Virus record (IMG/VR): IMGVR_UViG_3300034118_001588
Span: 1 to 25,369 of that record
Origin: a virus
Strand: one strand, 5' to 3'
DNA: 25,369 nucleotides
Of the stretch, positions 284 to 25,265 are shown piece after piece. Under the pieces are notes generated by a model that worked only from the letters and a program-made list of their open reading frames with translations, made no database searches and had not been told where the DNA came from. The number at the start of each line of letters is the position of its first letter. Within the stretch, counting starts at the first letter, position 1. Position numbers and translations under genes: made by a program.

Positions 284-3007
284 CTAGCTCAGGCGATAGG
301 TCACAAACGTGTTGGCAGCCGTGCGTCGTGAAGCAAAGCGACCAGAGGTGCCAGTAACAACAGAGCCAGAGCCGACGATGGTGTGAGCAGTGCCAGCAAG
401 TACGCGTACCAGGCTAAGACCTGTGTTGATGACGCTCCACTCAAATGTGAAGTTGTCATAGGTGCCATTAAAACCAGCTTGAGTGTCGGTGCCAGTGGGC
501 AGCGTCATGTCGGTTGCTAGTGCCGACGTGCTAGTGATAATGCCGGTTTTGAGGTTGGCAACAGTTAATGTTGCAGTGGCGTTGACAGCAGCGGGGGCAG
601 GTTGGTCGTAAGCTTTAACGCCGTCGTTGGTAATACGAAAACGCTCCGTCGGGCTGCTCGCTCCGTCGGCGGTAGTGAAGAACACTAAACGACCCGGCAT
701 ATCATTAGCGCCGGGGGTGCCGTCTACTTCGGCTTTTATTGATGCAGCAATTGTATTAAGGTCTATGCCATCATCTGCAACAAAAAGAATATTAGAAAGT
801 ACATCATTATTCTGCGCTATCGTCCTAGACGCAATAGAACCTCTTGTCTGGCCTAAGACTAAGTTTGAACCTGCTGTAGTTGCGTTTGTGCGAATAATTG
901 ACTGCCAGGCTACTCCTGCATCTCCGACTAGCTGAACATGAGGAGTTGATCCGCCTGCAGCAAGCGCACTAGACGTGCCAACTAAGAGCCTGCCGGAGCT
1001 GTCGATGCGGGCGCGTTCTGAACCGCCGCTCTTGAAAGCAATATTGCCGTTAGCATCCGACCCCGTGTACTCAAACTCTGCTGTCTTGGTGGAATCGGTA
1101 AGATTTACGCGAAGAATAGGGATATTTGTTCCACCTGCTCTCTGAAGTCGGAATATCTCGCCATCAGCGCTTTGTTGCACATGCAATAGCGACTGAGGCC
1201 CAGTAGTGCCAATCCCTACGTTGCCTGCCGATGTAATTCTCATCCGCTCCGTCGGACTTGATGCACCATCAAGAGTGGTAGAAAAGACCAGCCTGCCCGG
1301 CATGTCGTTAGCGCCGGGGGTGCCGTCTACTTCACAAGTAATCAGCCCAGCCTCGACAAATTCGGAGCCATCATTTCCTTGATATGAAACGCCGCCCAAT
1401 ATGTCATTAGCGGCAACAACAACATTCGTACCAAGGGCTCCACGGCTCCTGGCTAAAAATAAATTTGGATAGGGATTAGCGCTTGAGGCACTACCATTAG
1501 CAATGAGCGCAGCAGAGCTAAGAGAAGTAGTTGTACTTTCGACCTGTAACTGAGCGCTAATTGTGGAATTTCTAAAGTTTGTACGCGCATTAGACGTGCC
1601 AACTAAGAGCCTGCCGGAGCTGTCGATGCGGGCGTGCTCACTAGGGCCATTTCTAAACACATGAGCGCCCAGAGCAGAGCTAAAGTTCTGATTTTTGTAA
1701 ATTAAATCAAACGTAGTCGTATCTTTTATGATTGAACCAGTCCGGGCATTTGCGCTATTTGTACCGCCTATCGTAATACCAACAAATTCGCCAGAAGCCG
1801 AGTCGTTTCCGTTGCTTACGTGCAACGCATGGCCAGGGCTCGTAGTGCCAATCCCTACGTTGCCTCCTGAGGGGTTTAATGCGATTGGCCGAAACGCGGT
1901 CCCTGCTGTAATTGATTGAATCCAGGCGTAATTATTTGTTGTTTCAAAACCAAAATTCAAACGATTGGCAGTGTTTGTGCTGCCGCGAATTGCAAACTGA
2001 CCTCCGGCGTTTTGTTCAAACGTTGCGTCGCCTTGGACATGTAAAAGATTTACAGGACTCGTAGTGCCAATCCCTACTTTCCCTGTGTTATCAATAACGA
2101 CTCGCGTGTCCGTCCCGGTCTGTAGATACAGGGCACGGGCAGTGCCACCAAGACTTTGAGAGCGTACATAACCATATCTAGCCGTGGCGCCTGTAGATGC
2201 TGTTGTAGAATTACCTCCTATATAAACACCTGGTTGAGATGTACCGGGACCCCTGAATAAGGCGTAATTCTCTTCAGTGTCTGTCGTACTTGCTCCGACA
2301 ACTTCAATTGGAGTTGCAGGGCTACTAGTCCCCAGACCTAAGCGGCCATCAGAAGTAAACCGAGCACGCTCGGAACCATCAACACGAATGTCAATATATG
2401 ATGCGCTAGCAACATTGCCTTCATCAGCTCGAAGGGAAAGCGCTCCGTTGTTGTTAAGTATTTCGGCGTAAGAGTTGTCTGTTGTGTCGCGCAACCTTGC
2501 GGTAGGCAAAGCAGAAGTTATTTCAAAATTAGAGCTTGGCGAACCTCCAATGCCTACTTGTCCAGTTGCATTAATAAACAACCTCCCAGTGCCACTAGTC
2601 GAGATGGCTACTTGATCTGCACCGGGGGAGTATAGTCCAGAATTTGGGTCAGAAACAAAACTAATCGATGGATTTGCTGCCGTACCTGACGCAAATACAC
2701 CCGATGTAATGGTGTGAGTACCACCGCTGATGTTAGTGAAGTTACCGCTAGTAAAGTTTGCAGTAGTGCCCGTAACAGTAACCCCTGTTAATGAAGCAAA
2801 AGTTCCACTGGTAAACTGAGCGGTTGTTCCAGTAACGGTAACACCTGAAATTGTTTGACCCCGTACGGTATTACCAGAGATAGTTCCGGTTACTGTTACG
2901 TTTCCTGTAAAGGTAGGATTCTGAACTAAACCAGAAATTGCAACGCTTTTATCAACACCATCGCTAGTAAAGGTAATAGTGTCACACTTTAAAATTCCGT
3001 AAGCCAT
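284..3007 (-). CDS. Large repetitive tail-fibre-like protein, 907 aa
   Basis: Probable receptor-binding or side fibre. Residues 1 to about 110 carry short Thr/Gly/Val repeats such as SGVTVTGTTAQFTSG, also found in the neighbouring 596-aa protein. The middle is built of the fibre signature NVGIGTTSP-x-LLHV, alternating with ERARIDSSGRLLVGTS and DGTPGANDMPGRLVF blocks. In other phage fibres these blocks form beta-rich trimeric shafts. The C-terminal ~100 residues (from ATLTVANLKTG to TFVTYRLS) lack the blocks and probably form the tip domain. I see no Peptidase_S74 chaperone motif at the end. Start is ATG with a weak purine-rich leader; the gene ends in tandem TAG TAG. It lies 36 bases after the 596-aa fibre gene, so they are probably co-transcribed. 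The block pattern supports a fibre role; the receptor is unknown. Confidence 0.8.
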   Translation of the reverse strand: MAYGILKCDTITFTSDGVDKSVAISGLVQNPTFTGNVTVTGTISGNTVRGQTISGVTVTGTTAQFTSGTFASLTGVTVTGTTANFTSGNFTNISGGTHTITSGVFASGTAANPSISFVSDPNSGLYSPGADQVAISTSGTGRLFINATGQVGIGGSPSSNFEITSALPTARLRDTTDNSYAEILNNNGALSLRADEGNVASASYIDIRVDGSERARFTSDGRLGLGTSSPATPIEVVGASTTDTEENYALFRGPGTSQPGVYIGGNSTTASTGATARYGYVRSQSLGGTARALYLQTGTDTRVVIDNTGKVGIGTTSPVNLLHVQGDATFEQNAGGQFAIRGSTNTANRLNFGFETTNNYAWIQSITAGTAFRPIALNPSGGNVGIGTTSPGHALHVSNGNDSASGEFVGITIGGTNSANARTGSIIKDTTTFDLIYKNQNFSSALGAHVFRNGPSEHARIDSSGRLLVGTSNARTNFRNSTISAQLQVESTTTSLSSAALIANGSASSANPYPNLFLARSRGALGTNVVVAANDILGGVSYQGNDGSEFVEAGLITCEVDGTPGANDMPGRLVFSTTLDGASSPTERMRITSAGNVGIGTTGPQSLLHVQQSADGEIFRLQRAGGTNIPILRVNLTDSTKTAEFEYTGSDANGNIAFKSGGSERARIDSSGRLLVGTSSALAAGGSTPHVQLVGDAGVAWQSIIRTNATTAGSNLVLGQTRGSIASRTIAQNNDVLSNILFVADDGIDLNTIAASIKAEVDGTPGANDMPGRLVFFTTADGASSPTERFRITNDGVKAYDQPAPAAVNATATLTVANLKTGIITSTSALATDMTLPTGTDTQAGFNGTYDNFTFEWSVINTGLSLVRVLAGTAHTIVGSGSVVTGTSGRFASRRTAANTFVTYRLS
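642..730. repeat. Intragenic repeat A, copy 1 (partner 1245-1333)
   Basis: This 89-base segment of the 907-aa fibre gene matches 1245-1333 in length and partly in sequence; the last 26 bases (ttagcgccgg...tctacttc) are identical. It encodes the block DGTPGANDMPGRLVF followed by DGASSPTER. The near-identity suggests recent duplication or gene conversion inside the fibre. Confidence 0.7.
970..1013. repeat. 44-bp perfect direct repeat, copy 1 (partner 1591-1634)
   Basis: These 44 bases are identical to 1591-1634. They encode the ARIDSSGRLLVGTS block of the fibre on the minus strand. A perfect 44-base match within one gene points to recent duplication or ongoing homogenisation. Confidence 0.85.
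1245..1333. repeat. Intragenic repeat A, copy 2 (partner 642-730)
   Basis: Second copy of the fibre block described at 642-730, encoding DGTPGANDMPGRLVF plus DGASSPTERM. The divergence is concentrated in its first half. Confidence 0.7.
1591..1634. repeat. 44-bp perfect direct repeat, copy 2 (partner 970-1013)
   Basis: Second copy of the 44-base identical block in the 907-aa fibre gene. The flanking sequences differ, so only the ARIDSSGRLLVGTS block is duplicated. Confidence 0.85.
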
Positions 3008-3043
3008 TTTGTTGTCTCTTTTTGTTTATTTTAGCCGAGAAAA

Positions 3044-4834
3044 TTACGGAAGAATGATTAGTGGACCTTGGATTACAAACCCACTTGCGCTACCGGAAAC
3101 AACGCCAGAACACACAATGGCAGGCGTTGCGCCAGATGGCGTGGTTATCCTAAGCGTGCTCCCAGTGATGTTTGTAAACGTACCGGTTGCACCAGTAACT
3201 GTTACACCAGAAACAGTTGTAAATGTTGCAGTAACACCTGTGGTTGTTGTTCCTGTTAATGAAATAAATGTCCCAGTTGTTGCGGAGGTTGTGACTGCTT
3301 GAACCGTAGTACCTGTAATTGTTGTGCCACTAAGGGTACCGGTAATCTGAACACCAGAAGCAAAAAAACCAGAACCAAGGACATTAAGGTCACCTGATAC
3401 TGTCGTGTTAGTAAAAGCAAGGTTAATTGCCGCAAGTGTTTGGAAAATACCTGTCGTTGCATTGACTGTTGTTCCTGTGTACGTCGTACCACTAAGATTG
3501 GTAAAGACGCCAGACGTACCTTGGATCGTATTACCAGTGATTGTGGCCCCAGAAACACTGGTGGTGAAAACGCCTGCGATACCGGTCAGATTCGTGAAAC
3601 TGCCAGTGTCTCCTGTGACAAGCAGACCGGAAACATGTGTGGTAAATGTACCGGTTGCTCCCGTCAGGGAAGTAAAAGTACCAATGTTACCGGTAACGGT
3701 TGCGCCTGAAACTTGAGTGGTAAATGTCCCGGACGTACTCGTCAGGTTTGTAAAAACACCTGAGGCACCGGTAATTGTGGTGGCCGATAACTGACTAGTA
3801 AAGACACCGGATACACCAGAAACAATCGTTGCGGCAACTGTGTTACCAGTGACTGTTGCACCAGAAACTCTGGTGAATGTACCGGATACACCAGTCAGTG
3901 TTGTGTATTGTCCGGTGTCACCAGTAATGACTGCACCCGAAAGGAACTGTGTAAAAACACCAGAGATACCAGAGACGTTACCAAAGGCACCCGTATTGCC
4001 TGTTACGGTTGCACCAGAAACCCTGGTTGTGAAAGTACCGGAAACACCTGTGAGATTAGCAGTTTGTACCGTATTTCCGGTAATGGTTGCGCCAGATAAC
4101 TGTGTTGTGAAAACACCCGATACACCAGTGACACTTGTGAATTGTGCCGTAGATCCAGTTACTGTTGTTCCAGATAATGTTCCTGTGACCTGAACACCGT
4201 TACTAAATTGAGCAGTGCCAGTAACCGTCAGTCCGCTAGCAACGGAAAGATTACCGTTTACATCCAGTACAGGCGTACCAAGGACCTGGAACGTACCTGT
4301 GGTTGCTGCGACGGTAGTACCAGTGATTGTGACACCGCTCAGATTTGTGAATACACCAGATGGCGAGCGGACAATACCACCTGTAATCGTGGCACCTGAT
4401 AGGTTTTGATAAACGCCAGACGTAAAAGCACTTGTCGTACCTGTTGCGGTCGTAACCGTGGCAGTGACTGCGTTGACATTGGTGCCTTGTACGTTGGTTC
4501 CGGTAATGGTCAGACCACTGACGGTACCACTAATAACCGCATTATTTTGAACTACAATGCCACTGAATGTACTAGATCCAGAAGCTGTAATTGAATTGAA
4601 TGAGCTAGTGCCAGAAACCGTTAGGTTCCCTGAGATTGTGACGTTACCACTGAAGGTTGCGCCACTGGCAGGTGCGTAATACTCATTAAGATATTCTTTG
4701 AATTGAGTAAAGGTAATTTTTTTGTTGCGTAAAGTGGGGTCAACCTCGAAGACATGGACGAGCGTTAGCAGGTCCTGTTCATCGATCTCGCCCCCACTGA
4801 TGGCAGGGAATTCACTGATCCTACGGTTTGACAC
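3044..4834 (-). CDS. Tandem-repeat tail-fibre-like protein, 596 aa
   Basis: Probable virion fibre. The first ~60 residues are a non-repetitive head (RISEFPAISGGEIDEQDLL, then NKKITFTQFKEYL). In cyanophage fibre proteins such a head is likely to attach the fibre to the virion (family knowledge plus inference). Nearly all the rest is a tandem array of about 26 residues with the consensus VSGATVTGNTGxFxNLTG and SGTFTT, giving a DNA period near 78 bases. It is almost purely Thr/Ser/Gly/Val, as in beta-helical shafts. The C-terminus (SGSASGFVIQGPLIILP) is short, with no obvious globular tip. The start is GTG at 4832-4834, chosen because the head begins MSNRRISEF. It lies just upstream of the 907-aa fibre, which shares the repeat style; the two may assemble end to end. 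Confidence 0.75.
   Translation of the reverse strand: MSNRRISEFPAISGGEIDEQDLLTLVHVFEVDPTLRNKKITFTQFKEYLNEYYAPASGATFSGNVTISGNLTVSGTSSFNSITASGSSTFSGIVVQNNAVISGTVSGLTITGTNVQGTNVNAVTATVTTATGTTSAFTSGVYQNLSGATITGGIVRSPSGVFTNLSGVTITGTTVAATTGTFQVLGTPVLDVNGNLSVASGLTVTGTAQFSNGVQVTGTLSGTTVTGSTAQFTSVTGVSGVFTTQLSGATITGNTVQTANLTGVSGTFTTRVSGATVTGNTGAFGNVSGISGVFTQFLSGAVITGDTGQYTTLTGVSGTFTRVSGATVTGNTVAATIVSGVSGVFTSQLSATTITGASGVFTNLTSTSGTFTTQVSGATVTGNIGTFTSLTGATGTFTTHVSGLLVTGDTGSFTNLTGIAGVFTTSVSGATITGNTIQGTSGVFTNLSGTTYTGTTVNATTGIFQTLAAINLAFTNTTVSGDLNVLGSGFFASGVQITGTLSGTTITGTTVQAVTTSATTGTFISLTGTTTTGVTATFTTVSGVTVTGATGTFTNITGSTLRITTPSGATPAIVCSGVVSGSASGFVIQGPLIILP
3480..4420. repeat. Tandem coding repeats of about 78 bp in the fibre gene
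   Basis: Within the 596-aa fibre gene the unit VSGATVTGNT...SGVFTT recurs about ten times with a period near 26 residues. Units are diverged at DNA level but keep the same Gly/Thr positions. The boundaries given are approximate. Such arrays commonly change copy number by slippage or recombination. Confidence 0.6.
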
Positions 4835-8054: not shown

Positions 8055-8396
8055 ATGAATTCCGCTGCAGGTTTCTTAGACGCCTTTGTACAAGACGAAG
8101 TTAAATGTCGTTGTCTTGATGAAGAAGATTTTGGCGCACCTCTCGATAACGAGCAAAATGATGTACCATTGTATGACATGTACAATCGCGGTCTAGTAGC
8201 ATGCGAGCAGGGGCTAGAAAGGAATCCGTTGAATCTCGAGGGACAACGGCCTGGAATGACGGGCTATATCCCCTCAATGGAGCAGGGTTTGGCGATGGGA
8301 GCATCTCCGAAACCAAGGACGCTGGTGTTGGAACTGGAGGAACCGGACGAGAAGGAACGGATGCTGTCAGCAAAACGTCGTGGTTTGCTCCGGTAG
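8055..8396 (+). CDS. Hypothetical protein, 113 aa, overlapping DUF3310 out of frame
   Basis: The family is not recognised. The first ~50 residues look coding and acidic (FLDAFVQDEVKCRCLDEEDF, then NEQNDVPLYDMYNRGL). The later part (PRTLVLELEEPDEKERML) overlaps the DUF3310 frame for 196 bases. ATG 8055 is preferred over the adjacent GTG 8052; no good Shine-Dalgarno sequence is seen. A candidate -1 slippery heptamer, G GGT TTG at 8285-8291, is in the correct phase to move ribosomes into the DUF3310 frame. The frame may therefore be the 5' part of a fused product rather than an independent gene. Confidence 0.55.
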   Translation: MNSAAGFLDAFVQDEVKCRCLDEEDFGAPLDNEQNDVPLYDMYNRGLVACEQGLERNPLNLEGQRPGMTGYIPSMEQGLAMGASPKPRTLVLELEEPDEKERMLSAKRRGLLR

Positions 8397-8692
8397 ATGA
8401 AGTAAGTGACTGCCCTGGAGGTGTTTGCCCAGTGCCCTGGGCCACCAAAGAAAAGCCTCCTGTGGCCCAAGAAGATGTGGTGAATCACCCCGCTCACTAC
8501 ACAGATGGCGGCATTGAATGCATTGAAGCCATTGAAGCAGCTTTAACCGCCGAAGAATTCCGTGGTTACTGTAAGGGAAACAATTTAAAGTACACCTGGC
8601 GTGAACGCCACAAAGGCGGAACAGAATCACTGAAGAAAGCTCAGTGGTATCTGGACCGCCTCATTCAACTTGACGAAGCTCAGAAGGGCTGA
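8201..8692 (+). CDS. DUF3310-family protein, 163 aa (start uncertain)
   Basis: The C-terminal ~65 residues are a clear DUF3310 domain, widespread in phages and of unproven function (sometimes labelled nucleotide kinase without support). VNHPAHYTDGGIECIEAIEA comes first, then GYCKGNNLKYTWRERHKGG and a final helix LKKAQWYLDRLI. The ~95 residues before it are low-complexity and Gly/Thr-rich. ATG 8201 is the only ATG before the domain in this frame and has no Shine-Dalgarno sequence. The alternatives are a GTG near 8432 or a -1 frameshift from the 113-aa frame at 8285-8291. The last 13 bases overlap the end of the opposing NblA-like gene. Confidence 0.75.
   Translation: MRAGARKESVESRGTTAWNDGLYPLNGAGFGDGSISETKDAGVGTGGTGREGTDAVSKTSWFAPVDEVSDCPGGVCPVPWATKEKPPVAQEDVVNHPAHYTDGGIECIEAIEAALTAEEFRGYCKGNNLKYTWRERHKGGTESLKKAQWYLDRLIQLDEAQKG
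8285..8291 (+). promoter_or_regulatory. Candidate -1 ribosomal frameshift heptamer
   Basis: GGGTTTG is read as (ca)G GGT TTG in the 113-aa frame, fitting the X XXY YYZ pattern. A -1 slip would give GGG TTT and continue as GDGSISE in the DUF3310 frame. Both frames are open from 8177 to 8396, so the site is usable. This heptamer is not among the best-known bacterial sites, and no strong downstream stem was verified. Confidence 0.3.
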
Positions 8693-8985
8693 AGTTCATC
8701 GTCATCATCCTCGTCGTCGTCGCGATATCCACAGGCAGCGGCGAGTTCTGCTAATTCGAGGTCGGTTGGATGATCCCAGTCGATCTCAATGTTTTCTGAC
8801 GCCATGATGTCTTTGATGGCATGCCACTCCATCAAACGTTGGTGGTAGAGACTCAACAAAGCAAAACGCAACTCTTCCCAAGTCATTTCCTCGGACTGGA
8901 GTTCAGCTTTGCGCATGGCAAATTGAAGCTCAAGAGGAAGTTCAAACTCCCGTGGCTCGACCGAACGCTCCATTCCACTCTGCAT
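8680..8985 (-). CDS. nblA: NblA-like phycobilisome degradation protein, 101 aa
   Basis: NblA (Ycf18, PF04485) proteins are short helical adaptors that bind phycobiliproteins and deliver them for proteolysis; some cyanophages carry the gene. Residues 14-61 align without gaps to the NblA helix-turn-helix pattern: FELPLELQFAMRKAE matches L-x-LE-x-QF-x-x-R, EEMTWEEL matches the MS-x-EQA turn, and LLSLYHQRLME matches L-x-x-LY-x-Q. The protein is longer than typical NblA (about 60 aa). Extra parts are a 13-residue N-terminal extension and a ~40-residue C-terminal tail ending in an acidic run (DDDEDDDDE). Start is ATG 8985; a second Met at residue 5 is possible. It lies 24 bases after the lysozyme gene. 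The call rests on motif recall, not a search. Confidence 0.75.
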   Translation of the reverse strand: MQSGMERSVEPREFELPLELQFAMRKAELQSEEMTWEELRFALLSLYHQRLMEWHAIKDIMASENIEIDWDHPTDLELAELAAACGYRDDDEDDDDELQPF

Positions 8986-9009: not shown

Positions 9010-9669
9010 CTAGCCGTTAAATATCAGATCGACGGACTCATCGGCAAAGTCCTGCCATCGGTCGTCATCAATACGAAAACTGTTGGCAAACTCAGACAGG
9101 ATGTAAGGATTGATACGTTCCTCCAGAGCACGGATTGCGCGTACTTCGTGGGGAGCAGCACTGTAATTACGGAAGGCGGTCAACAAGACTTCTGTTGATG
9201 CCCAAGGGCTGGTGTCTACGTCACGAAGGAAAAGACCCATCTCTTCTCTCCTGCGTTCCAGGAGACCACCAACAACCTTATGGTTTTGGTCAAAGATCCA
9301 GCGGCTCATTTCCGTGGTGGCACTAGCAAAATCCTCTGCTTCCACATGATCAATGATGTGGCTGTACAAGAAGGACTCCCAACCAACGGAATGAATGAAC
9401 GAGACTAGAGCCTGGCGCATGTTGTCGTCAAGACCAAGGTTCTGCCGCTGGAGCTGGGACTCAATGACGCTGACCTCATGGAAGAGGTACGCAAGAGCTT
9501 TCTCCTGGCTGCAACGCTGACCTTGCTTGACGGGGGAACCATCGGGATAGAACTGGGTTCCAAACCCGATGGTGTATGGCTCTGCGCCAGTGTGCGGATC
9601 TGCGTATGCCTTTTCGTTAAACCCTTCGTATTTACGAATTAGGTTAATAGCACGCGAAAAATCCGACAT
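9010..9669 (-). CDS. T4-type lysozyme (GH24 endolysin), 219 aa
   Basis: Hydrolyses the beta-1,4 bond between N-acetylmuramic acid and N-acetylglucosamine in peptidoglycan, probably for lysis. The N-terminal active-site region is clear: LIRKYEGFNEKAYADP then PYTIGFGT, giving the T4-lysozyme Glu-Asp-Thr triad as Glu15, Asp24 and Thr33. NMRQALVSFIHSVGW and the RRREEMGLFL stretch are also typical of GH24. About 65 extra C-terminal residues of unknown role follow the ~150-residue domain. I see no signal peptide, so export would need a holin or similar. ATG 9669 is chosen because it immediately precedes the domain; an in-frame TTG at 9693 would add eight residues. There is no Shine-Dalgarno sequence at normal spacing, and a hairpin directly abuts the ATG. 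Confidence 0.9.
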   Translation of the reverse strand: MSDFSRAINLIRKYEGFNEKAYADPHTGAEPYTIGFGTQFYPDGSPVKQGQRCSQEKALAYLFHEVSVIESQLQRQNLGLDDNMRQALVSFIHSVGWESFLYSHIIDHVEAEDFASATTEMSRWIFDQNHKVVGGLLERRREEMGLFLRDVDTSPWASTEVLLTAFRNYSAAPHEVRAIRALEERINPYILSEFANSFRIDDDRWQDFADESVDLIFNG

Positions 9670-9691
9670 GGAGATAACTATTGTTATCCCC
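9670..9691 (-). promoter_or_regulatory. Hairpin abutting the lysozyme start codon
   Basis: On the minus strand GGGGATAAC, loop AATA, then GTTATCTCC ends directly at the ATG. It pairs over 9 bp with one G-U wobble. It would hide the initiation region of the lysozyme message and could delay its translation, or act as an operator at DNA level. Confidence 0.5.
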
Positions 9692-9705
9692 AATATACAT
9701 AATTT

Positions 9706-10142: not shown

Positions 10143-12365
10143 CTAACCAAAGAGAGATCCAAAGCCACCGCCTGATCCCATATTAAAATAGGAAGGCGCA
10201 CCTTCATCTTCTTCATCTGGGAAGTAATCAAAGAAACGTGAACGTGTGGGCGTATATGTTTCTTTTTTCTTTGTTGAATCATCTGCCATCATTTTATCAA
10301 GAGAGCCAATAGCAGCAAAAGGATCTGAAAAATCTGGCATGCTAAACCCCAGGAGGTTCTGCGCTCCTTTCGCAGTACTTGCTTTACCTACATCCGATGC
10401 CGAAAGATTTTTATCTTCTTCAGTTGCATCAGGGAAGAAATCTGTGTAAAACTCTGATTCACTTCCGCTATAACCTGCTTTCTGAAAGATATTAAACAGG
10501 GCACTGCCACCTGTAGGTGCTTCAACTTTCTCGTCTCCCTCTCTCTGGATATAACCAAAACCTAGTTTTTCTTGCGTGGGCTTGATCCGTTGTTCATTCA
10601 GTTCTTTAATACGTTCTCGAATATCAATAGCCTGGTTGGTGCGCAAGATACCCATCAAACCTTCTTTTACGTCTTCCGTTGGATCTGTATTTTCATCGAT
10701 ACCTAAATTATTGAGTTGTTTTTTTAAGTCCGCAGGTAGATCTGCAACATTTAAAGCATCAACAAATTCTTTTGCTTTTTGTTCTGCTGTAACAAAATCA
10801 AGAAATACAGGATTGCCAAACTCTGTTTTTTTATTTTGCAAAGCTTTAGCCAGATCCCCCTGGATAAAGTTGGCAAGATCTTGCCTGGTATAGGTATCGG
10901 CAACCGGATCATAGTATTTGTCCTTACCAATTACTGAGTAATGTAAACGGGCAAAGTCATTTTTATTCTCTAGATCAATGCCATATTCATAAGCAAGTTG
11001 TGACCATGGCTTACCATCTTTTACTGCGGCATCACTATTGCGTGCGTCCCACGCGCTCTGGACCGATTGTTTTTGCTGTTCGTAAAGTGGCTTCTTGTTT
11101 GTAACATCAGTACCACTCAGTAACTCTGGATTCCAATAAAAGTTAGGATCAAATTCTCTTTGAAGGGTTTGACCGCCTAACTGATTGATAAATGCTTGTG
11201 CTTGTTGCTTTGAAAAATCCTTAAGTGCACTAGATGCTAACTGCGTTTGCAAAACGTTTTGCTCATCTTCTTTGACGTCCATATAGCTGATGAATTCAGA
11301 AATGGACTTTGAGTTATCAAAACGAGGCTTTAAATAGTCCTGCACAAAAGACTGTGCAAATGCCTTGTCAACTTCATATGCTTCTTTTGCTTCTCCCGGT
11401 GTCGTGATCTGCGACATCTCTTCATATCGCTTGGAGAGAGTCTCGTCAAACCACTTTTGCCAATTGTATTGAACAGATAAGCCAATTCCAAGACTCTTGT
11501 CTAGGCTTTTTGAAAGGCCTTTATCAAGATCAGTCTTGGAACCAAACCCAAGAAATCCCCCGGCACCCATGTCACCAAGAATCGCATTCTTGATGTCCTG
11601 TTTCATGTTATTAATATTGGGCACACCCATGCCCTGAAAAAGATCAGACATCTGCTGATCTTTCAGTGCTTTTGCATATTCATCCATTGTCTGCTTCAAG
11701 GCGTCTGCTGACAAAGCGCCAAAGACTTGTTCCCCTTGCTTGTCAACAATGTCTTGTGTTGCAAGCTCAGCTAATGACTGAGGTTTATCTTTTGATGTGC
11801 CCAGAAGCGTCTCTCTGAGTACTTGACGTTCTTGATTTGTAGGAGCACGAAGGGTTTCTTGGTATTGCTCCAAGGTTCTTGGCTTGCCTAATTTACCGCT
11901 CGGTGCGCCAACAAAGGTGTAATCGGCGTGAAGGAAAGAATCAAGATCCGAATACTTTTTTGTTACATCAATGTCTGGAATTTTTGTGCCGGCAAAAGAA
12001 ACAGCTTTCGAGGCTTCATTCCACTTTGCAACTGAATCAGGTACCTGTCTCGAATAAAACTTTGCATCAAACTTATTTATATCAACCCCTTGTTTACTGG
12101 AATCCCAGGGCTTCAATCCTGTTGCCTTGACGTAAAAGTCTTCAATTTCTTTTACGGTTACGTCATCAATTGAATCTCTTGCGTTGCTGTTATTTTTTTG
12201 AAGCGCTTGATCAAGCGACTCCATCAAACTTTTGTAGTTTTCACCAGGGCCTTGGATAGCGTTTAAACGTTGCGCAATTGTATCTGCTGCTTCTACTACG
12301 TCAGCGGTTGCGTCACTTGGTAGTACAGGCCGCAAAGAACCATTAACAACATTAAAACGAATCAT
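10143..12365 (-). CDS. Large probable virion protein, 740 aa
   Basis: The family is not recognised. It is a long, mostly helical, charged protein without Cys clusters, signal peptide or membrane helix, rich in Asp, Lys, Gln and Ala. The C-terminal ~60 residues are acidic then Gly-rich (PDEEDEGAPSYFNMGSGGGF, ending GSLFG). Its size, position in the late minus-strand block and composition fit an internal or ejected virion protein, or a structural component of the tail or core; this is inference. Its ATG overlaps the TGA of the upstream HNH gene (ATGA at 12362-12365), so the two are translationally coupled. There is no enzyme motif I can name. Confidence 0.6.
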   Translation of the reverse strand: MIRFNVVNGSLRPVLPSDATADVVEAADTIAQRLNAIQGPGENYKSLMESLDQALQKNNSNARDSIDDVTVKEIEDFYVKATGLKPWDSSKQGVDINKFDAKFYSRQVPDSVAKWNEASKAVSFAGTKIPDIDVTKKYSDLDSFLHADYTFVGAPSGKLGKPRTLEQYQETLRAPTNQERQVLRETLLGTSKDKPQSLAELATQDIVDKQGEQVFGALSADALKQTMDEYAKALKDQQMSDLFQGMGVPNINNMKQDIKNAILGDMGAGGFLGFGSKTDLDKGLSKSLDKSLGIGLSVQYNWQKWFDETLSKRYEEMSQITTPGEAKEAYEVDKAFAQSFVQDYLKPRFDNSKSISEFISYMDVKEDEQNVLQTQLASSALKDFSKQQAQAFINQLGGQTLQREFDPNFYWNPELLSGTDVTNKKPLYEQQKQSVQSAWDARNSDAAVKDGKPWSQLAYEYGIDLENKNDFARLHYSVIGKDKYYDPVADTYTRQDLANFIQGDLAKALQNKKTEFGNPVFLDFVTAEQKAKEFVDALNVADLPADLKKQLNNLGIDENTDPTEDVKEGLMGILRTNQAIDIRERIKELNEQRIKPTQEKLGFGYIQREGDEKVEAPTGGSALFNIFQKAGYSGSESEFYTDFFPDATEEDKNLSASDVGKASTAKGAQNLLGFSMPDFSDPFAAIGSLDKMMADDSTKKKETYTPTRSRFFDYFPDEEDEGAPSYFNMGSGGGFGSLFG

Positions 12366-12718
12366 GACGCTTCTTTAAAATCTCTTAGGTCAATGACCTT
12401 GGGATAGGACAAATCCATCCAGGCTTTAATTCTATCCAGCTTATCTTCTGAAAAGTACTCTTGTTGTTTGTACCAAGTCTCCATATCGCTTGATGCTTTG
12501 TTTGCATTGCATTTTTTACAAGCTGGAACTAAGTTATGACGATTAGAACAACCAGATTTAAAACGTGGAATAATGTGATCAAGGCTCGTGGCAGCCTCGC
12601 CGCAATAACCACACTTATGATCCCAGGCTTGATATATACTTTCTCTAAAACGTTTCTTGGCAAGCTTTGGTGTTAATTCAACTAGCAGGGCGAGGGGCTC
12701 GTGCTGGCTGCAAAACAT
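12362..12718 (-). CDS. HNH endonuclease, 118 aa
   Basis: A small HNH-family nuclease that would cut double-stranded DNA. The metal-binding ββα region is complete: KCGYCG (first Cys pair), SLDHIIPRFKSG (the DH of the HNH core), RHNLVPACKKCNANKAS (Asn plus second Cys pair). A C-terminal helix with Trp-rich WYKQQEYFSE follows. Size fits a free-standing phage homing-type endonuclease; a role in packaging is another known use of HNH proteins, but no terminase is adjacent. The ATGA overlap with the 740-aa gene shows it is in the late operon. Start ATG 12718 is preceded by a GAAG-like element. Confidence 0.85.
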   Translation of the reverse strand: MFCSQHEPLALLVELTPKLAKKRFRESIYQAWDHKCGYCGEAATSLDHIIPRFKSGCSNRHNLVPACKKCNANKASSDMETWYKQQEYFSEDKLDRIKAWMDLSYPKVIDLRDFKEAS

Positions 12719-20462: not shown

Positions 20463-21626
20463 TCAAACAGTGCCGTCATCTTGCACAAAGCTGTAAGCAG
20501 TGGTCACGAAGTCCTTGTTGAGGATCTCGAAACCAGCGTACAGTTGCCAAATCAGGATGATGAAACGGCTGAAGTCATCGTTGTTGTTGATGAGCACTTG
20601 AGCGTTCGGGCCGCCGATACCAACACCAACAGACTGAGGACCGAAGAAGAAGCCTTGAGCAGCTTCCCTGGAGGCATAGGTGGAACCACCATCGAAGGAG
20701 GCACTCACACTCTTGGTCGGGAAGTTGGTCGACTCGAAGAACTTCACGCCTTCAAACTGAACGCCAGTAGGCATTACAGGTTCACCAGCCAGGAAGTAGC
20801 CTTGGCCGGCCTGAGGACCCATGTAGAAGCTGGCGTTGTTAGGCATCATGGGGTTACCCATGTACATGCCTTGGCCAGGGTTACCGGAGTAACGCGCAAT
20901 CTCACGGAAGTCAGGATCACGACGCAGGTGCATCATGAAGGTAGGATCGCAGATGCAACGATACAGACCATCAGCGAAGGTCGGAACGTTACGCTTGCGC
21001 AAATCCTTAACAATGGTCAGCAGGTCAGTACGCACCTGGAACTGCTGAACTTCATTACCGTATTCGGTGGTGGTGTAGCTGACACGACCAGAGGAATCTT
21101 TGATCTTGTTACCAGCGAAGTAGTAACCACCTTGGGTAGTAGAAGCAGCGCCATTGGCTTCTGCTTTCGACAGTTCGTCAATAAAGACGCGGTCACGCCA
21201 ACGGCGATAGTCGTCAAGCAGCGTCAGGCTACCGATCGACTGGTGGAACATATTCAGGTTGCCCGAATCCAGAAGCAGGCGCTGGGCCGTGATCAGGGTT
21301 TCACGAGCAATCTTGAAGGTCGAAGGCTGAGTCGGATCACCCGGGTCGGCAGGACCAGTGTATTCCTTAAGCACCACCAGGACTTTCTCCTTGGTGATGT
21401 TACGGCTGTTAGCGGTACCGATGGTTTGGTCGGCAATACGCTCACGGCTGTCCTTAGTACCAGGGGTACCCCAGAACTTATAGCGATCAAGCTGAACAGT
21501 TTGACCAGGCTGACGAGTGAAGTCGTGAACAACTACAGGCTCGACTGCCATTTCTGCGATATACGCAGGGTGGGGACGGTAAAGTTCCGCACCCAAAATC
21601 TTTGGAAAGTCGTTATCAATGAACAC
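20463..21626 (-). CDS. Major capsid protein, 387 aa
   Basis: Main shell protein of the head. It follows the scaffold-like gene, has a typical length, and opens FIDNDFPKILGAELYRPHPA. A long N-terminal beta/arm region is followed by GQTVQLDRYKFWG, a helical IARETLITAQRLLLDSGNL, and a large domain with YRCICDPTFMMHLRRDPDFR. The pattern is reminiscent of the HK97-fold N4 gp56-type family (recalled, not searched). The GTG start at 21624-21626 is supported by GGAGG ten bases upstream, the strongest class of ribosome binding site here. Codon use is more GC-rich than in neighbours, as expected for high expression. The long antisense frame over it has no support as a gene. Confidence 0.8.
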   Translation of the reverse strand: MFIDNDFPKILGAELYRPHPAYIAEMAVEPVVVHDFTRQPGQTVQLDRYKFWGTPGTKDSRERIADQTIGTANSRNITKEKVLVVLKEYTGPADPGDPTQPSTFKIARETLITAQRLLLDSGNLNMFHQSIGSLTLLDDYRRWRDRVFIDELSKAEANGAASTTQGGYYFAGNKIKDSSGRVSYTTTEYGNEVQQFQVRTDLLTIVKDLRKRNVPTFADGLYRCICDPTFMMHLRRDPDFREIARYSGNPGQGMYMGNPMMPNNASFYMGPQAGQGYFLAGEPVMPTGVQFEGVKFFESTNFPTKSVSASFDGGSTYASREAAQGFFFGPQSVGVGIGGPNAQVLINNNDDFSRFIILIWQLYAGFEILNKDFVTTAYSFVQDDGTV

Positions 21627-22276: not shown

Positions 22277-23266
22277 TCACTCCATCACAAACAGTTTGTT
22301 TGCAACAACTTGAGGCTGAGCTTGGTTCAGAAGACGCCAGGCATTCTCCGGATTCACATCCATTTGTTGCTTGAAGCTGCCCCAGAAGTTCTCAGGTTGC
22401 TGAGGAGCGGAAGCAGCAGGGGGTGCAGGGAATTGGCCCATATAGTTCTGGATCGATTCCGTAGGATAACCACGGGTTTCCAGTTGGGACTCATCCTCAT
22501 ACACAGGGTACGGACCTTCAGGACCAAAGAACTTCAGCGTGTAATCGCTGAGTACATCAGGATTGGTCAGGATTTCGTTGTAAGCCAGGTTCTCTTGGTG
22601 CTCGGCAACAGAGAAATCGGCATAACGATGAAGGACCTCTTGTGCTTTGCTGCCCCAGGCAACAGCACTGTCAAGCATGGCTTCCAGTTGGAGGCCATAG
22701 TTATTGAGAACAGCAGGTGCGTCCCAACCGTAAGCATTAATTACGTTTCTGCTTTCCGGGCTTAGTTGCAGGTAATCCGCGATCGCGTTTTGCACCTCGC
22801 TCGTCGGGTTGAGGCCGTCGAGTGTTGAGTAAATTGTCGAGGAAATTTGGGAAGAGCTGGGCGAGTAAGCCTGGTTGGGTGACCAGGTCTGCGGAGCCGA
22901 TTGTTGCGTAGCTGGGTTGCTGTACTGCTGACCGTAGTTGGCCGGTGCGTACTGGGTCGGAATCTGTGATGGTTGACCCTGGAACGGGGATTGAACTGGA
23001 CTGCTCAGCAGATTCACCACCTTGTTGAACGCCGATTCCCACGGATTGCTGTTCGCTTCCGCTTGGTATTGGGGGGCGTACTGAGTAGGGGCTGATTGGT
23101 AATTGGGGGCCGCCTGAGGCACCGCTTGGGGGTAGCTGGTACCCACCTGATACGCCACTGGAGCTTGGGGTACTGGAGCCTGGGCTGGTACCACGTAGCT
23201 GCTTGGAGCCACCGCCACTGGTGCTTGGCTCGTCTGTGGGATCGATTGGACGGTAGCGTCCTGCAT
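22277..23266 (-). CDS. Probable capsid scaffolding protein, 329 aa
   Basis: Placed between portal and capsid genes, where tailed phages keep the scaffold. Residues 1 to about 145 are Pro/Gln/Ala/Ser/Tyr-rich and disordered (YVVPAQAPVPQAPVAYQ, YQSAPTQYAPQYQ). Residues about 150-260 are helical (SEVQNAIADYLQLSPESRNV, then WGSKAQEVLHRYADFSVAEH), and the C-terminus (NPENAWRLLNQAQPQVVANK) could contact the shell. A helical scaffold with a disordered arm fits. The start is firmly set by AAGGAG seven bases before ATG 23266. The first 530 bases overlap the portal gene in another frame on the same strand. Confidence 0.65.
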   Translation of the reverse strand: MQDATVQSIPQTSQAPVAVAPSSYVVPAQAPVPQAPVAYQVGTSYPQAVPQAAPNYQSAPTQYAPQYQAEANSNPWESAFNKVVNLLSSPVQSPFQGQPSQIPTQYAPANYGQQYSNPATQQSAPQTWSPNQAYSPSSSQISSTIYSTLDGLNPTSEVQNAIADYLQLSPESRNVINAYGWDAPAVLNNYGLQLEAMLDSAVAWGSKAQEVLHRYADFSVAEHQENLAYNEILTNPDVLSDYTLKFFGPEGPYPVYEDESQLETRGYPTESIQNYMGQFPAPPAASAPQQPENFWGSFKQQMDVNPENAWRLLNQAQPQVVANKLFVME

Positions 23267-25013
23267 AACTCATCTCCTTTTGTAGAGCTTCTAATGTTCG
23301 ATACAGATATGGAGTTAAATCCAATCTTGGATCCGCAGCCATCGGAAGATCCGGTGCTTGCGGGTGGGGAGTCTGCATCATTCCCCCCACTAAGCGAGCG
23401 AATTGAGAGTATGCACCCTGTAATTCGTTCACCATCCTGAAAGGGAACCCAGATAACATCTCGGCCCTTTCCTCATCCGTCTTAGACGGGAAGAGGTATT
23501 TCAGTGCTTCAATGCTATCAACACCTAACTCCTGGAGGTTTCGTACCACGATGGAGTTGTTGAGGATGTCTTGGGTGGAGTCCTCATAAACAGGACCCAT
23601 CCAACGCCACAAAATAGTTAAATCACCGTCCGGAATAAGACCAATAACCTTGGGTGGAATCTGTTGGGTCTCCACACAAGCCATCATAAGTTGTTTGAGT
23701 TGGTCATTGTATTGCTTCATTGCTTCTTCATATGCCATCTCTTCTTCTGGGGAAGCACCGTCAGGTAGATCCACGGGCTTTTCTAATCCTGCTGCCATCG
23801 CAAGCGTCGTCTTGAAGAGTTGTTCTTCCTGGTAAATAATCAACTCAAGACAACGACAGATGCCATGTGTGTAAATAGCATTTGCTTTCTTCTTGGATGT
23901 AGCAGCTACACGACCAAACAATGATTTGTACTCAGTTGCAGTCACGCCTGCAGAGATAGACAGTTCATCAACACCACCAAGTGCTGTACGGATCTCTTCT
24001 CGATACTGACGCGCAAATGCGTTTTGGTCACCTGTAATTGCATCGGGGACAATGTAACCAACACGGTCGTTTGGTTCCAGGTTTGCGATGACTCTTGGTA
24101 CACGGATCTGACCATCAGCACCACGGCTGACAGGATCTGCTTTGAACGTAGAGCGACTCAAGGCAGCAGGACTCGTGAAGCCAGAGTTTGCTGCAATAGA
24201 AGGTCGCTGAACGCTCATGTCCCCACCTGCTTCCATCAGGTCTGTCTTGGGACGTGACGAAAGCAGTGTTGGGTTACCAAAGAAAGTGATGTTCTTGCGC
24301 ATGGTGCGCATCAATTCATCATGCGTGCAAATGTGATTAGCGACTGCATCAAACTCACCAGAGCCTTCATTTGAAAAGCCTTGAGTGTTGTTGATGATCT
24401 CAACGCAAGGAATAAAGCCAAGACTATTTTTAAGCGTTTTGGTATTACCTGTTAACGCATAGGTTGGCATGTCAAAATTCAGCTCCGAATCGGAGTGCGT
24501 CTCTTCAATCTCTTTTGGTTTAATTGACAATCGGATATAACGCTTAGCACCGGGATTGTATGTGCTTTGCGATCCAGTGATATTGACTGTGTTGATTTGA
24601 TCGCCAAAGCCGTTGCCACGGCGCACCTTGTAGCTGTAGATGATTACGACTTCGTCAAGCTCACCGTCAACGTTGTAATAGGCACGATATTCATGTTCAC
24701 GAAAGTAATAAAGTCTATAGCTCTGCTTGGTAGGACGAATGTAAAAAAGTCCTTTACCATCACACAAAAAGTATTCCCAGATGGAATCCAAACGGGTATC
24801 CATCTTGTTGTACTTGAGTACCCTGTCGATAAAGTCTTTGCGCTGAGCGCCAAAGTTATCTTGCCCTGGAAAGAACTCAACTCCTTGGCGAATACCAAAG
24901 AGTTTCATCTGTGCAATATGGGACGCAACAATACCCGTATCTACAACAATGTCACTGTTTTTATCCAGGTAAGCATTGATGATTTCGTGGAGTCGGGCTT
25001 TAGCGTCAGCCAT
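22737..25013 (-). CDS. Portal protein, 758 aa, with C-terminus overprinting scaffold
   Basis: Forms the ring at the head vertex through which DNA is packaged. The first ~580 residues have portal-like features: a helical N-terminus (ARLHEIINAYLDKNSDIVVD), a wing-like beta region (YYFREHEYRAYYNVDGELDE), and a long helical stem/crown region (FARQYREEIRTALGGVDELS, VAATSKKKANAIYTHGICRC). Its place before the scaffold and capsid genes supports this. Residues ~583-758 are Ser/Gly/Pro/Gln-rich and disordered, ending in a basic tail (ERGAKRDRGLPATKPGKQKR); they lie in the region that also encodes the scaffold N-terminus. Portals of related size are usually nearer 550-600 aa, so the tail is an unusual extension. 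ATG 25013 has AAGG six bases upstream. Confidence 0.75.
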   Translation of the reverse strand: MADAKARLHEIINAYLDKNSDIVVDTGIVASHIAQMKLFGIRQGVEFFPGQDNFGAQRKDFIDRVLKYNKMDTRLDSIWEYFLCDGKGLFYIRPTKQSYRLYYFREHEYRAYYNVDGELDEVVIIYSYKVRRGNGFGDQINTVNITGSQSTYNPGAKRYIRLSIKPKEIEETHSDSELNFDMPTYALTGNTKTLKNSLGFIPCVEIINNTQGFSNEGSGEFDAVANHICTHDELMRTMRKNITFFGNPTLLSSRPKTDLMEAGGDMSVQRPSIAANSGFTSPAALSRSTFKADPVSRGADGQIRVPRVIANLEPNDRVGYIVPDAITGDQNAFARQYREEIRTALGGVDELSISAGVTATEYKSLFGRVAATSKKKANAIYTHGICRCLELIIYQEEQLFKTTLAMAAGLEKPVDLPDGASPEEEMAYEEAMKQYNDQLKQLMMACVETQQIPPKVIGLIPDGDLTILWRWMGPVYEDSTQDILNNSIVVRNLQELGVDSIEALKYLFPSKTDEERAEMLSGFPFRMVNELQGAYSQFARLVGGMMQTPHPQAPDLPMAADPRLDLTPYLYRTLEALQKEMSYAGRYRPIDPTDEPSTSGGGSKQLRGTSPGSSTPSSSGVSGGYQLPPSGASGGPQLPISPYSVRPPIPSGSEQQSVGIGVQQGGESAEQSSSIPVPGSTITDSDPVRTGQLRSAVQQPSYATIGSADLVTQPGLLAQLFPNFLDNLLNTRRPQPDERGAKRDRGLPATKPGKQKRN
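23274..23279 (-). promoter_or_regulatory. Strong Shine-Dalgarno inside the portal gene
   Basis: AAGGAG lies seven bases upstream of the scaffold ATG at 23266. It is good evidence that translation begins here, within the portal reading frame. Confidence 0.8.
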
Positions 25014-25082: not shown

Positions 25083-25265
25083 CTACTCTTCTATAACCTC
25101 GTAGCCAGCCGCATCATTGACCTTGGAGATGATGATACCAGTGCCACGTACATCCCAATTAAGTACGTCGCCTTCTTGCCAGCACAACTCTTCCATCACC
25201 TCATCGGGAAGAACAATGTACTGATCTCCGTTCTCGTCCTCCTGGACCTCGAGGATGTAACTCAT
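25083..25265 (-). CDS. SpoVT-AbrB-like small DNA-binding protein, 60 aa
   Basis: Matches the swapped-hairpin AbrB/MazE-type DNA-binding domain over nearly its full length: YILEVQEDENGDQYIVLP, DEVMEELCWQEGDVLNWDV and a last strand GIIISKV. Such proteins are transition-state regulators or antitoxins; no toxin gene is visible beside it. Similar stand-alone domains occur in cyanobacteria and their phages. Its ATG overlaps the TGA of the preceding gene (ATGA) and it lies 69 bases before the portal gene, so it is at the head of the structural block and might regulate it (inference). Confidence 0.75.
   Translation of the reverse strand: MSYILEVQEDENGDQYIVLPDEVMEELCWQEGDVLNWDVRGTGIIISKVNDAAGYEVIEE

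Follow-up and report, generated by a model that had tools for sequence, protein, structure and literature searches.

NblA proteins of cyanobacteria and their phages are among the closest described counterparts of the gene analysed here. In passages of PMC4103541, NblA is reported to contact ClpC via an N-terminal-proximal motif and phycobiliproteins via a C-terminal-proximal motif. Passages of PMC9602691 describe cyanophage NblA in Ma-LMM01, PaV-LD, MaMV-DC, S-SCSM1 and S-TIM5, and report that several phage NblAs bleach cells; as such, phage NblA is already known, tested bleaching activity included, and it represents one of the few known viral ways to dismantle photosynthetic antennae. For the S-EIV1 group, the table of a 2017 survey gives no nblA (PMC5332604). 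Here we present a gene family of the S-EIV1 lineage for which profile comparisons support a relationship to NblA, and whose products carry an acidic tail that in most distinct members ends in Pro-Phe.

An NblA-like gene behind a phage lysozyme

The sequence analysed, IMGVR_UViG_3300034118_001588, is a 25,369-base IMG/VR virus contig (hereafter the window). On its minus strand, an ORF running from ATG to TGA at 8985..8680 specifies a protein of 101 aa as called, confirming the gene that a first-pass annotation, made from the sequence alone, had placed at 8680–8985. A plus-strand reading of this interval was ruled out, as it contains stops. Met5 (8973) is present in all 109 distinct relatives collected (see below), whilst Met1 is found in 56; translation therefore probably begins at Met5, giving 97 aa. 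A crude test for a ribosome-binding site upstream of Met5 was positive in only 32 of the 109, and neither supports nor excludes this start.

The lysozyme neighbour noted by the same annotation was also confirmed: a lysozyme/endolysin gene (9010–9693, minus; PHROG endolysin families) lies directly upstream on the same strand. Further ahead in the direction of transcription are genes for a portal or virion protein (22737–25013) and the major head protein (20463–21626), along with other late genes, and an HNH nuclease gene (12362–12718) is located between the head gene and the lysozyme. On the plus strand, a DUF3310 gene (8201–8692; PF11753) converges on the NblA-like gene, its last 13 bases (8680–8692) overlapping the codons of the C-terminal Gln-Pro-Phe. 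The overlap is near-palindromic, and encodes QPF-stop in the minus-strand gene and QKG-stop in the plus-strand one. Elsewhere in the window, we observed a small MazE/AbrB-type protein beside the portal gene (25083–25265, minus; PF04014, 28.1 bits against a cut-off of 24.7), whose C-terminus is similar to that of an S-EIV1 protein at 56940, and two long proteins (284–4834, minus) with Ser/Thr/Gly-rich repeats such as SGVFTNLSG that by eye are tail-fibre-like.

Distribution in the S-EIV1 lineage

A tblastn search of 50,697 phage records with the window protein returned Synechococcus phage S-EIV1 as the sole good match, plus one weak microvirus match (E ≤ 1). This phage, the closest isolate, has a Synechococcus as its host. 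Three scans of IMG/VR using members of three branches listed at least 80, 31 and 66 loci, respectively, with 181 reported by the first. Combining S-EIV1 with the 80, 31 and 66 loci, and removing L108 and L185 (the latter cut at a contig end), gave a set of 176; these, a lower bound on the number of loci, specify 109 distinct NblA-like proteins among those listed. In all 167 listed loci that had at least 600 nt of upstream sequence, the lysozyme gene immediately precedes the NblA-like gene in the same orientation.

In order to avoid selecting contigs by the NblA-like gene itself, we chose 16 contigs of ∼39 kb or longer by their major head protein, from among 80 listed, and found the gene in 12. 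Where checked, its expected site is roughly 11–18 kb downstream of the head gene, and the coordinates indicate that the four contigs without the gene stop before or near this site. Thus, the NblA-like gene behaves as a near-core gene of the S-EIV1 lineage, unlike a sporadic metabolic gene. Three NblA-like genes (L085, L087 and L088) are found in one genome labelled as a Euryarchaeota MAG, and most likely represent mis-binned cyanophage contigs. Passages of PMC9239245 describe a prophage of Synechococcus elongatus UTEX 3055 as closest in similarity to S-EIV1.

Relationship to NblA

The top Pfam match of the window protein is PF04485, with residues 15–61 aligning to positions 1–47 of the 50 in the model, at 18.6 bits (E 0.0025) against a curated cut-off of 25 bits. 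Of ten relatives scored singly, one passes this cut-off (L157, 26.8 bits), eight score 18–24.6 bits and one has no match at E ≤ 0.01; the S-EIV1 copy has no PF04485 match at E ≤ 0.01 in Pfam, and scores 17.4 bits in a one-record search. Across alignments, PF04485 matches all 44 members of alignment A1 (E ≤ 1) and 72 of the 76 members of the diverse alignment A3 (E ≤ 0.01), and the NCBIfam NblA model matches six of 76. Additionally, the family profile, when searched against the PDB, matched NblA itself best (1ojh; E 0.00047, and 0.00035 in a second run). We also compared the 109-protein alignment by hhalign with 15 NblA references (seven from cyanobacterial plasmids, five viral and three from the PDB), which are mostly from Nostocales plus one viral group and include no picocyanobacterial NblA. 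This gave a probability of 95.9 and an E-value of 6 × 10−9, gapless over 51 columns (residues 13–63). The score was 48.4, as against a best of 20.3 among 200 column-shuffled NblA profiles, and a reversed reference profile gave a probability of 0.2. Given how far the shuffled profiles fall short, and how many of the diverse members PF04485 recognizes, the match is not one of chance.

These comparisons make a strong case for an NblA-related family, with the window member alone being below the cut-off. The gapless alignment of residues 14–61 to NblA, as originally read from the sequence, is borne out by both the PF04485 match and the family comparison, and the proposed NblA homology is supported at the family level. 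For the window member alone, the PF04485 search, which had been suggested as a check, is borderline because of its sub-cut-off score.

Predicted structure and conservation of the two ends

AlphaFold monomer models of the window protein are essentially all-helical, with helices at residues ∼18–33, 36–63 and 75–86, and a second AF2 model has block-mean pLDDT values of ∼80–90 over residues 21–70. Based on PF04485, hhalign and AF2, residues 14–62 (8800..8946, minus) form the NblA-homologous core, comprising helix 1 (∼18–33) and helix 2 (∼36–63). The two-helix hairpin of about 50 residues that structure prediction had been proposed to look for is thus predicted (AF2 monomer), alongside the gapless alignment. 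With Foldseek, neither NblA nor any other solved or viral structure was matched significantly, and a VIA-align fold comparison, which covered six chains only, gave no usable match. The core is followed by a lineage-specific third segment (residues 63–87; 8725..8799, minus) with a predicted helix at ∼75–86, delimited using alignment A3, column counts and AF2. Within it, P73, T74 and E77 are invariant, and E64, D71, L78 and L81 are invariant or nearly so. Next comes the acidic run (residues 88–98; 8692..8724, minus), consisting of Arg, nine acidic residues and Leu, which is modelled with low confidence (pLDDT < 50 at residues 93–99 in the first model, block means of 57–64 in the second). The protein ends in a Gln-Pro-Phe tip (residues 99–101; 8683..8691, minus), delimited by the Pro-Phe ends among relatives, that resembles the C-terminal tip of single-stranded DNA-binding protein (SSB). 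A pN/pS estimate of 0.19 for the core, 0.37 for the third segment, 0.39 for the tail and 0.43 for the tip is crude: synonymous sites approach saturation, and the clades were pooled whether or not they have a Pro-Phe end.

The N-terminal L-x-L-E-x-Q-F block of NblA is retained across the family (L16 in 108, L18 in 109, E19 in 95, Q21 in 108 and F22 in 108 of 109 relatives). In the window it reads L-P-L-E-L-Q-F, with S8 changed to P17 and Q11 to L20 relative to the references; both positions are fixed or nearly fixed in the 15 references, yet differ here. Other family-wide changes at reference-conserved positions are F18 to A27, V22 to A31 and Y48 to I/V57. Towards the end of helix 2, K53 is replaced by A62 in 88 of 109 relatives and W56 by N65 in 92, whilst the position of Anabaena L51 is I or L in all 109. 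L51 and K53 of NblA reportedly matter, according to a 2006 study. As judged against references that lack picocyanobacterial NblA, which limits the comparison, the ClpC end looks largely kept and the phycobilisome-side end rebuilt. As the ClpC motif is N-terminal and the phycobiliprotein motif C-terminal in NblA (passages of PMC4103541), the C-terminal extension would be on the cargo side. The suggestion of the first-pass annotation that the tail alters the Clp side therefore looks inverted, and is poorly supported.

The acidic tail and its Pro-Phe tip

Beyond residue ∼61 the window protein extends for 40 residues, with nine consecutive acidic residues at positions 89–97, and its C-terminus is DDDDELQPF, i.e. 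an acidic run followed by Leu-Gln-Pro-Phe. The ∼40-residue extension and its nine acidic residues had been correctly described in the first-pass annotation, but the protein does not end with them; the Pro-Phe tip, which was missed, is what most sets the tail apart. In all 109 distinct relatives the last 17 residues carry a net charge of −6 to −11, and in 106 there is a Phe within the last eight. A C-terminal Pro-Phe follows the acidic run in 74, and is maintained whilst the length of the run varies; in 27, mainly oceanic, Pro-Phe is located three to four residues inside the C-terminus (e.g. DPFTPA and DPFEPV), and in eight it is missing (e.g. an ENCFL end). In some clades the terminal residues are small or hydrophobic (PA, PV, AV, FL and LA). 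The idea that the acidic run is a neutral GAY repeat was considered and not favoured, given that the run changes in length whilst Pro-Phe persists. As the three Pro-Phe states require three changes on the core tree, compared with at least 27 in shuffles, they mark clades. Among the NblA-like ORFs in these loci, 73 of 106 end in Pro-Phe, all 73 having six or more acidic residues, whilst among the 1,415 remaining ORFs of these loci seven end in Pro-Phe, none of them with as many as three acidic residues among the final 16.

We also considered whether the tip arises purely from antisense overlap with the convergent gene. Of the Pro-Phe loci, 71 overlap by 7 bases or more, 54 overlap by fewer than 7 or have no overlap that was found, and six were too short; the 54 lead us to reject overlap as the sole cause. 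In these 54, only Pro-Phe is fixed, and the preceding residues vary (LAPF, LSPF, CVPF, LLPF and ALPF). In the window, the overlap of the LQPF codons with the convergent gene is a possible confounder for the likeness of the tip, and the Gln of LQPF, which falls within the overlap with the convergent AQKG-stop, may be set by the end of that gene.

Proposed function and alternative explanations

The homology, conservation, genomic place and tail anatomy documented above describe the protein itself; from them we infer an action on phycobilisomes. The account that we hold to be just on the probable side is that the phage encodes a Clp adaptor of the NblA type, the cargo end of which has been remodelled. 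The protein would belong to the NblA superfamily and act as a small proteolysis adaptor built on a helix hairpin; S-EIV1-lineage cyanophages would encode it at the lysis end of their structural operon and probably express it in late infection. It would probably retain an N-terminal face for docking on the host ClpC unfoldase, with a rebuilt cargo end composed of a lineage-specific third helix and then a flexible acidic arm with a Phe-containing tip. Its most likely job would be the delivery of phycobiliproteins to ClpC–ClpP, perhaps from the particular phycobilisome of picocyanobacterial hosts, and the arm may add a second contact to cargo or partner. In disagreement with this account are the consistent location behind lysozyme, which is odd for a gene of early benefit, and the fact that the changes at NblA-conserved positions include the C-terminal end reported to bind phycobiliproteins.

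The tip itself raises another explanation, a rival to be taken seriously though we consider it unlikely: the hairpin docks ClpC, or merely dimerizes, whilst the tail captures proteins that read SSB tips, such that factors for replication, repair and recombination, whether of the host or of the phage, are inhibited, recruited or degraded. The acidic X-Pro-Phe-COOH end of 74 relatives resembles the conserved acidic DDDIPF tip described for SSB in passages of PMC8509808. The absence of such an end from the 1,415 other ORFs argues in the same direction, as does its retention in the 54 loci at which the antisense overlap leaves the tip codons free. Furthermore, among 128 S-EIV1 CDSs examined (of 129 annotated; one across the origin was left out), only the NblA-like protein and the annotated ssDNA-binding protein end in Pro-Phe. 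SSBs of the lineage bear near-identical tips (DEPF, DEVPF, DDQPF and DDNAPF, the last in record G034, and DDDNQPF in the relative SSB L204, compared with DDELQPF in the window protein), and in record G042 the SSB ends in DDQPF and the NblA-like protein in DDLQPF. In 20 record pairs, both proteins end in Pro-Phe in 18, neither does in one (third clade) and only the SSB does in one (oceanic), a co-variation that is suggestive at most. The third-clade pair agrees with tip mimicry, a relative SSB there (L203) ending in DDNEHF; however, the SSB genes of L202 and L203 (∼2250–2340) are distinguished by a single base within a stretch of T, giving DDNEHF or a longer CFQLF end, so the third-clade SSB tip is weakly established. 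The difference could be either a sequencing slip or a real change in length. Mimicry is further weakened by the 27 relatives, mainly oceanic, in which the Phe is not terminal, even though the SSB of one such record (L129/L199) ends in DPF, and by the eight relatives without Pro-Phe. Readers of SSB tips are known to recognize, among other features, the carboxylate of the terminal Phe. Moreover, a replication function would be unexpected in a late gene next to lysis functions. A specific form of this idea, in which the NblA body holds ClpC and the SSB-like tip lures host or phage genome-maintenance proteins, appears rather unlikely from the sequences; if true, an adaptor for the disposal of light-harvesting complexes would have been turned into a tool acting on DNA metabolism.

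Less favoured than either the adaptor account or capture of SSB-tip readers are two further explanations. That the tail works on the unfoldase side, either tethering flexibly through a docking motif at its end or serving as a degron by which the adaptor is co-degraded, is improbable in our view. SspB has a ClpX-binding tail of the tethering kind, and the uniformly acidic tails with Phe near the end in 106 of 109 relatives have the layout of a flexible arm plus hydrophobic tip; small or hydrophobic terminal residues in some clades fit likewise, and co-degradation of NblA by Clp is reportedly documented, to go by the title of a 2014 paper by Baier. However, the N-terminal ClpC motif of NblA (passages of PMC4103541) is largely kept here, making a second unfoldase contact unneeded. 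Slightly more improbable still, we judge, is a former NblA that now serves in structure, lysis or morphogenesis with no Clp or phycobilisome role. The invariable position behind lysozyme at the end of a late operon, and presence in 12 of the 16 capsid-selected contigs, the pattern of a core gene and not of a metabolic gene carried sporadically, are consistent with such a role; the N-terminal block of NblA, kept despite great divergence, speaks against it.

Comparison with known systems

In common with cyanobacterial NblA (PF04485; PDB 1ojh, 2q8v, 2qdo and 3cs5), the family possesses a gapless two-helix core and the L-x-L-E-x-Q-F block; in contrast, NblA is ∼55–70 aa long, with neither the third segment nor the acidic Pro-Phe tail, and several of its conserved positions are changed here. 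The NblAs of Ma-LMM01, PaV-LD, MaMV-DC, S-SCSM1 and S-TIM5 are likewise phage-borne homologues, although none of these phages gave a tblastn match to the window protein in the phage collection (E ≤ 1). Searches of the same collection with a Nostoc-type NblA fragment, an IMG/VR viral NblA and a marine extended NblA also returned no match, and thus published phage NblAs were not recovered by tblastn. A marine viral NblA-like family (L223–L234; gene at ∼4001–4345) similarly joins an NblA core to a C-terminal extension with an acidic end, but its members are 113–115 aa long with a different extension that lacks Pro-Phe. The stretches compared have only an HNH nuclease in common with S-EIV1, and this family is apparently outside the S-EIV1 lineage.

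With the SSB C-terminal tip, the window protein shares an acidic run followed by Pro-Phe-COOH; it differs in having an NblA-like body without an OB fold, and oceanic members carry Pro-Phe internally. No SSB family was found among the Pfam matches of the window protein up to E 1, and its model is essentially all-helical. If the tip does bind SSB readers, it would show a way to give a Clp adaptor a new target.

Among the passages checked in papers naming both S-EIV1 and nblA, none ascribes nblA to S-EIV1; within this literature, which does not extend to S-EIV1's own description, neither NblA in the S-EIV1 lineage nor the Pro-Phe tip was found in print, and we consider both to be new to that extent. 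The S-EIV1 protein AHV82245.1 (KJ410740) is 62 % identical to the window protein over residues 5–86 (tblastn), is encoded at the same site directly behind lysozyme and has an acidic tail with a Pro-Phe end. Its tail is longer, ending in DDLRKELAPF, and its gene overlaps the convergent gene by 4 bp rather than the 13 bp seen in the window. In the GenBank record it is annotated as a hypothetical protein, not as NblA; our findings thus give the lineage a relative of NblA, near-core in its distribution, where GenBank has a hypothetical protein and, if the NblA-like protein bleaches cells, a whole freshwater-to-ocean lineage would gain that ability.
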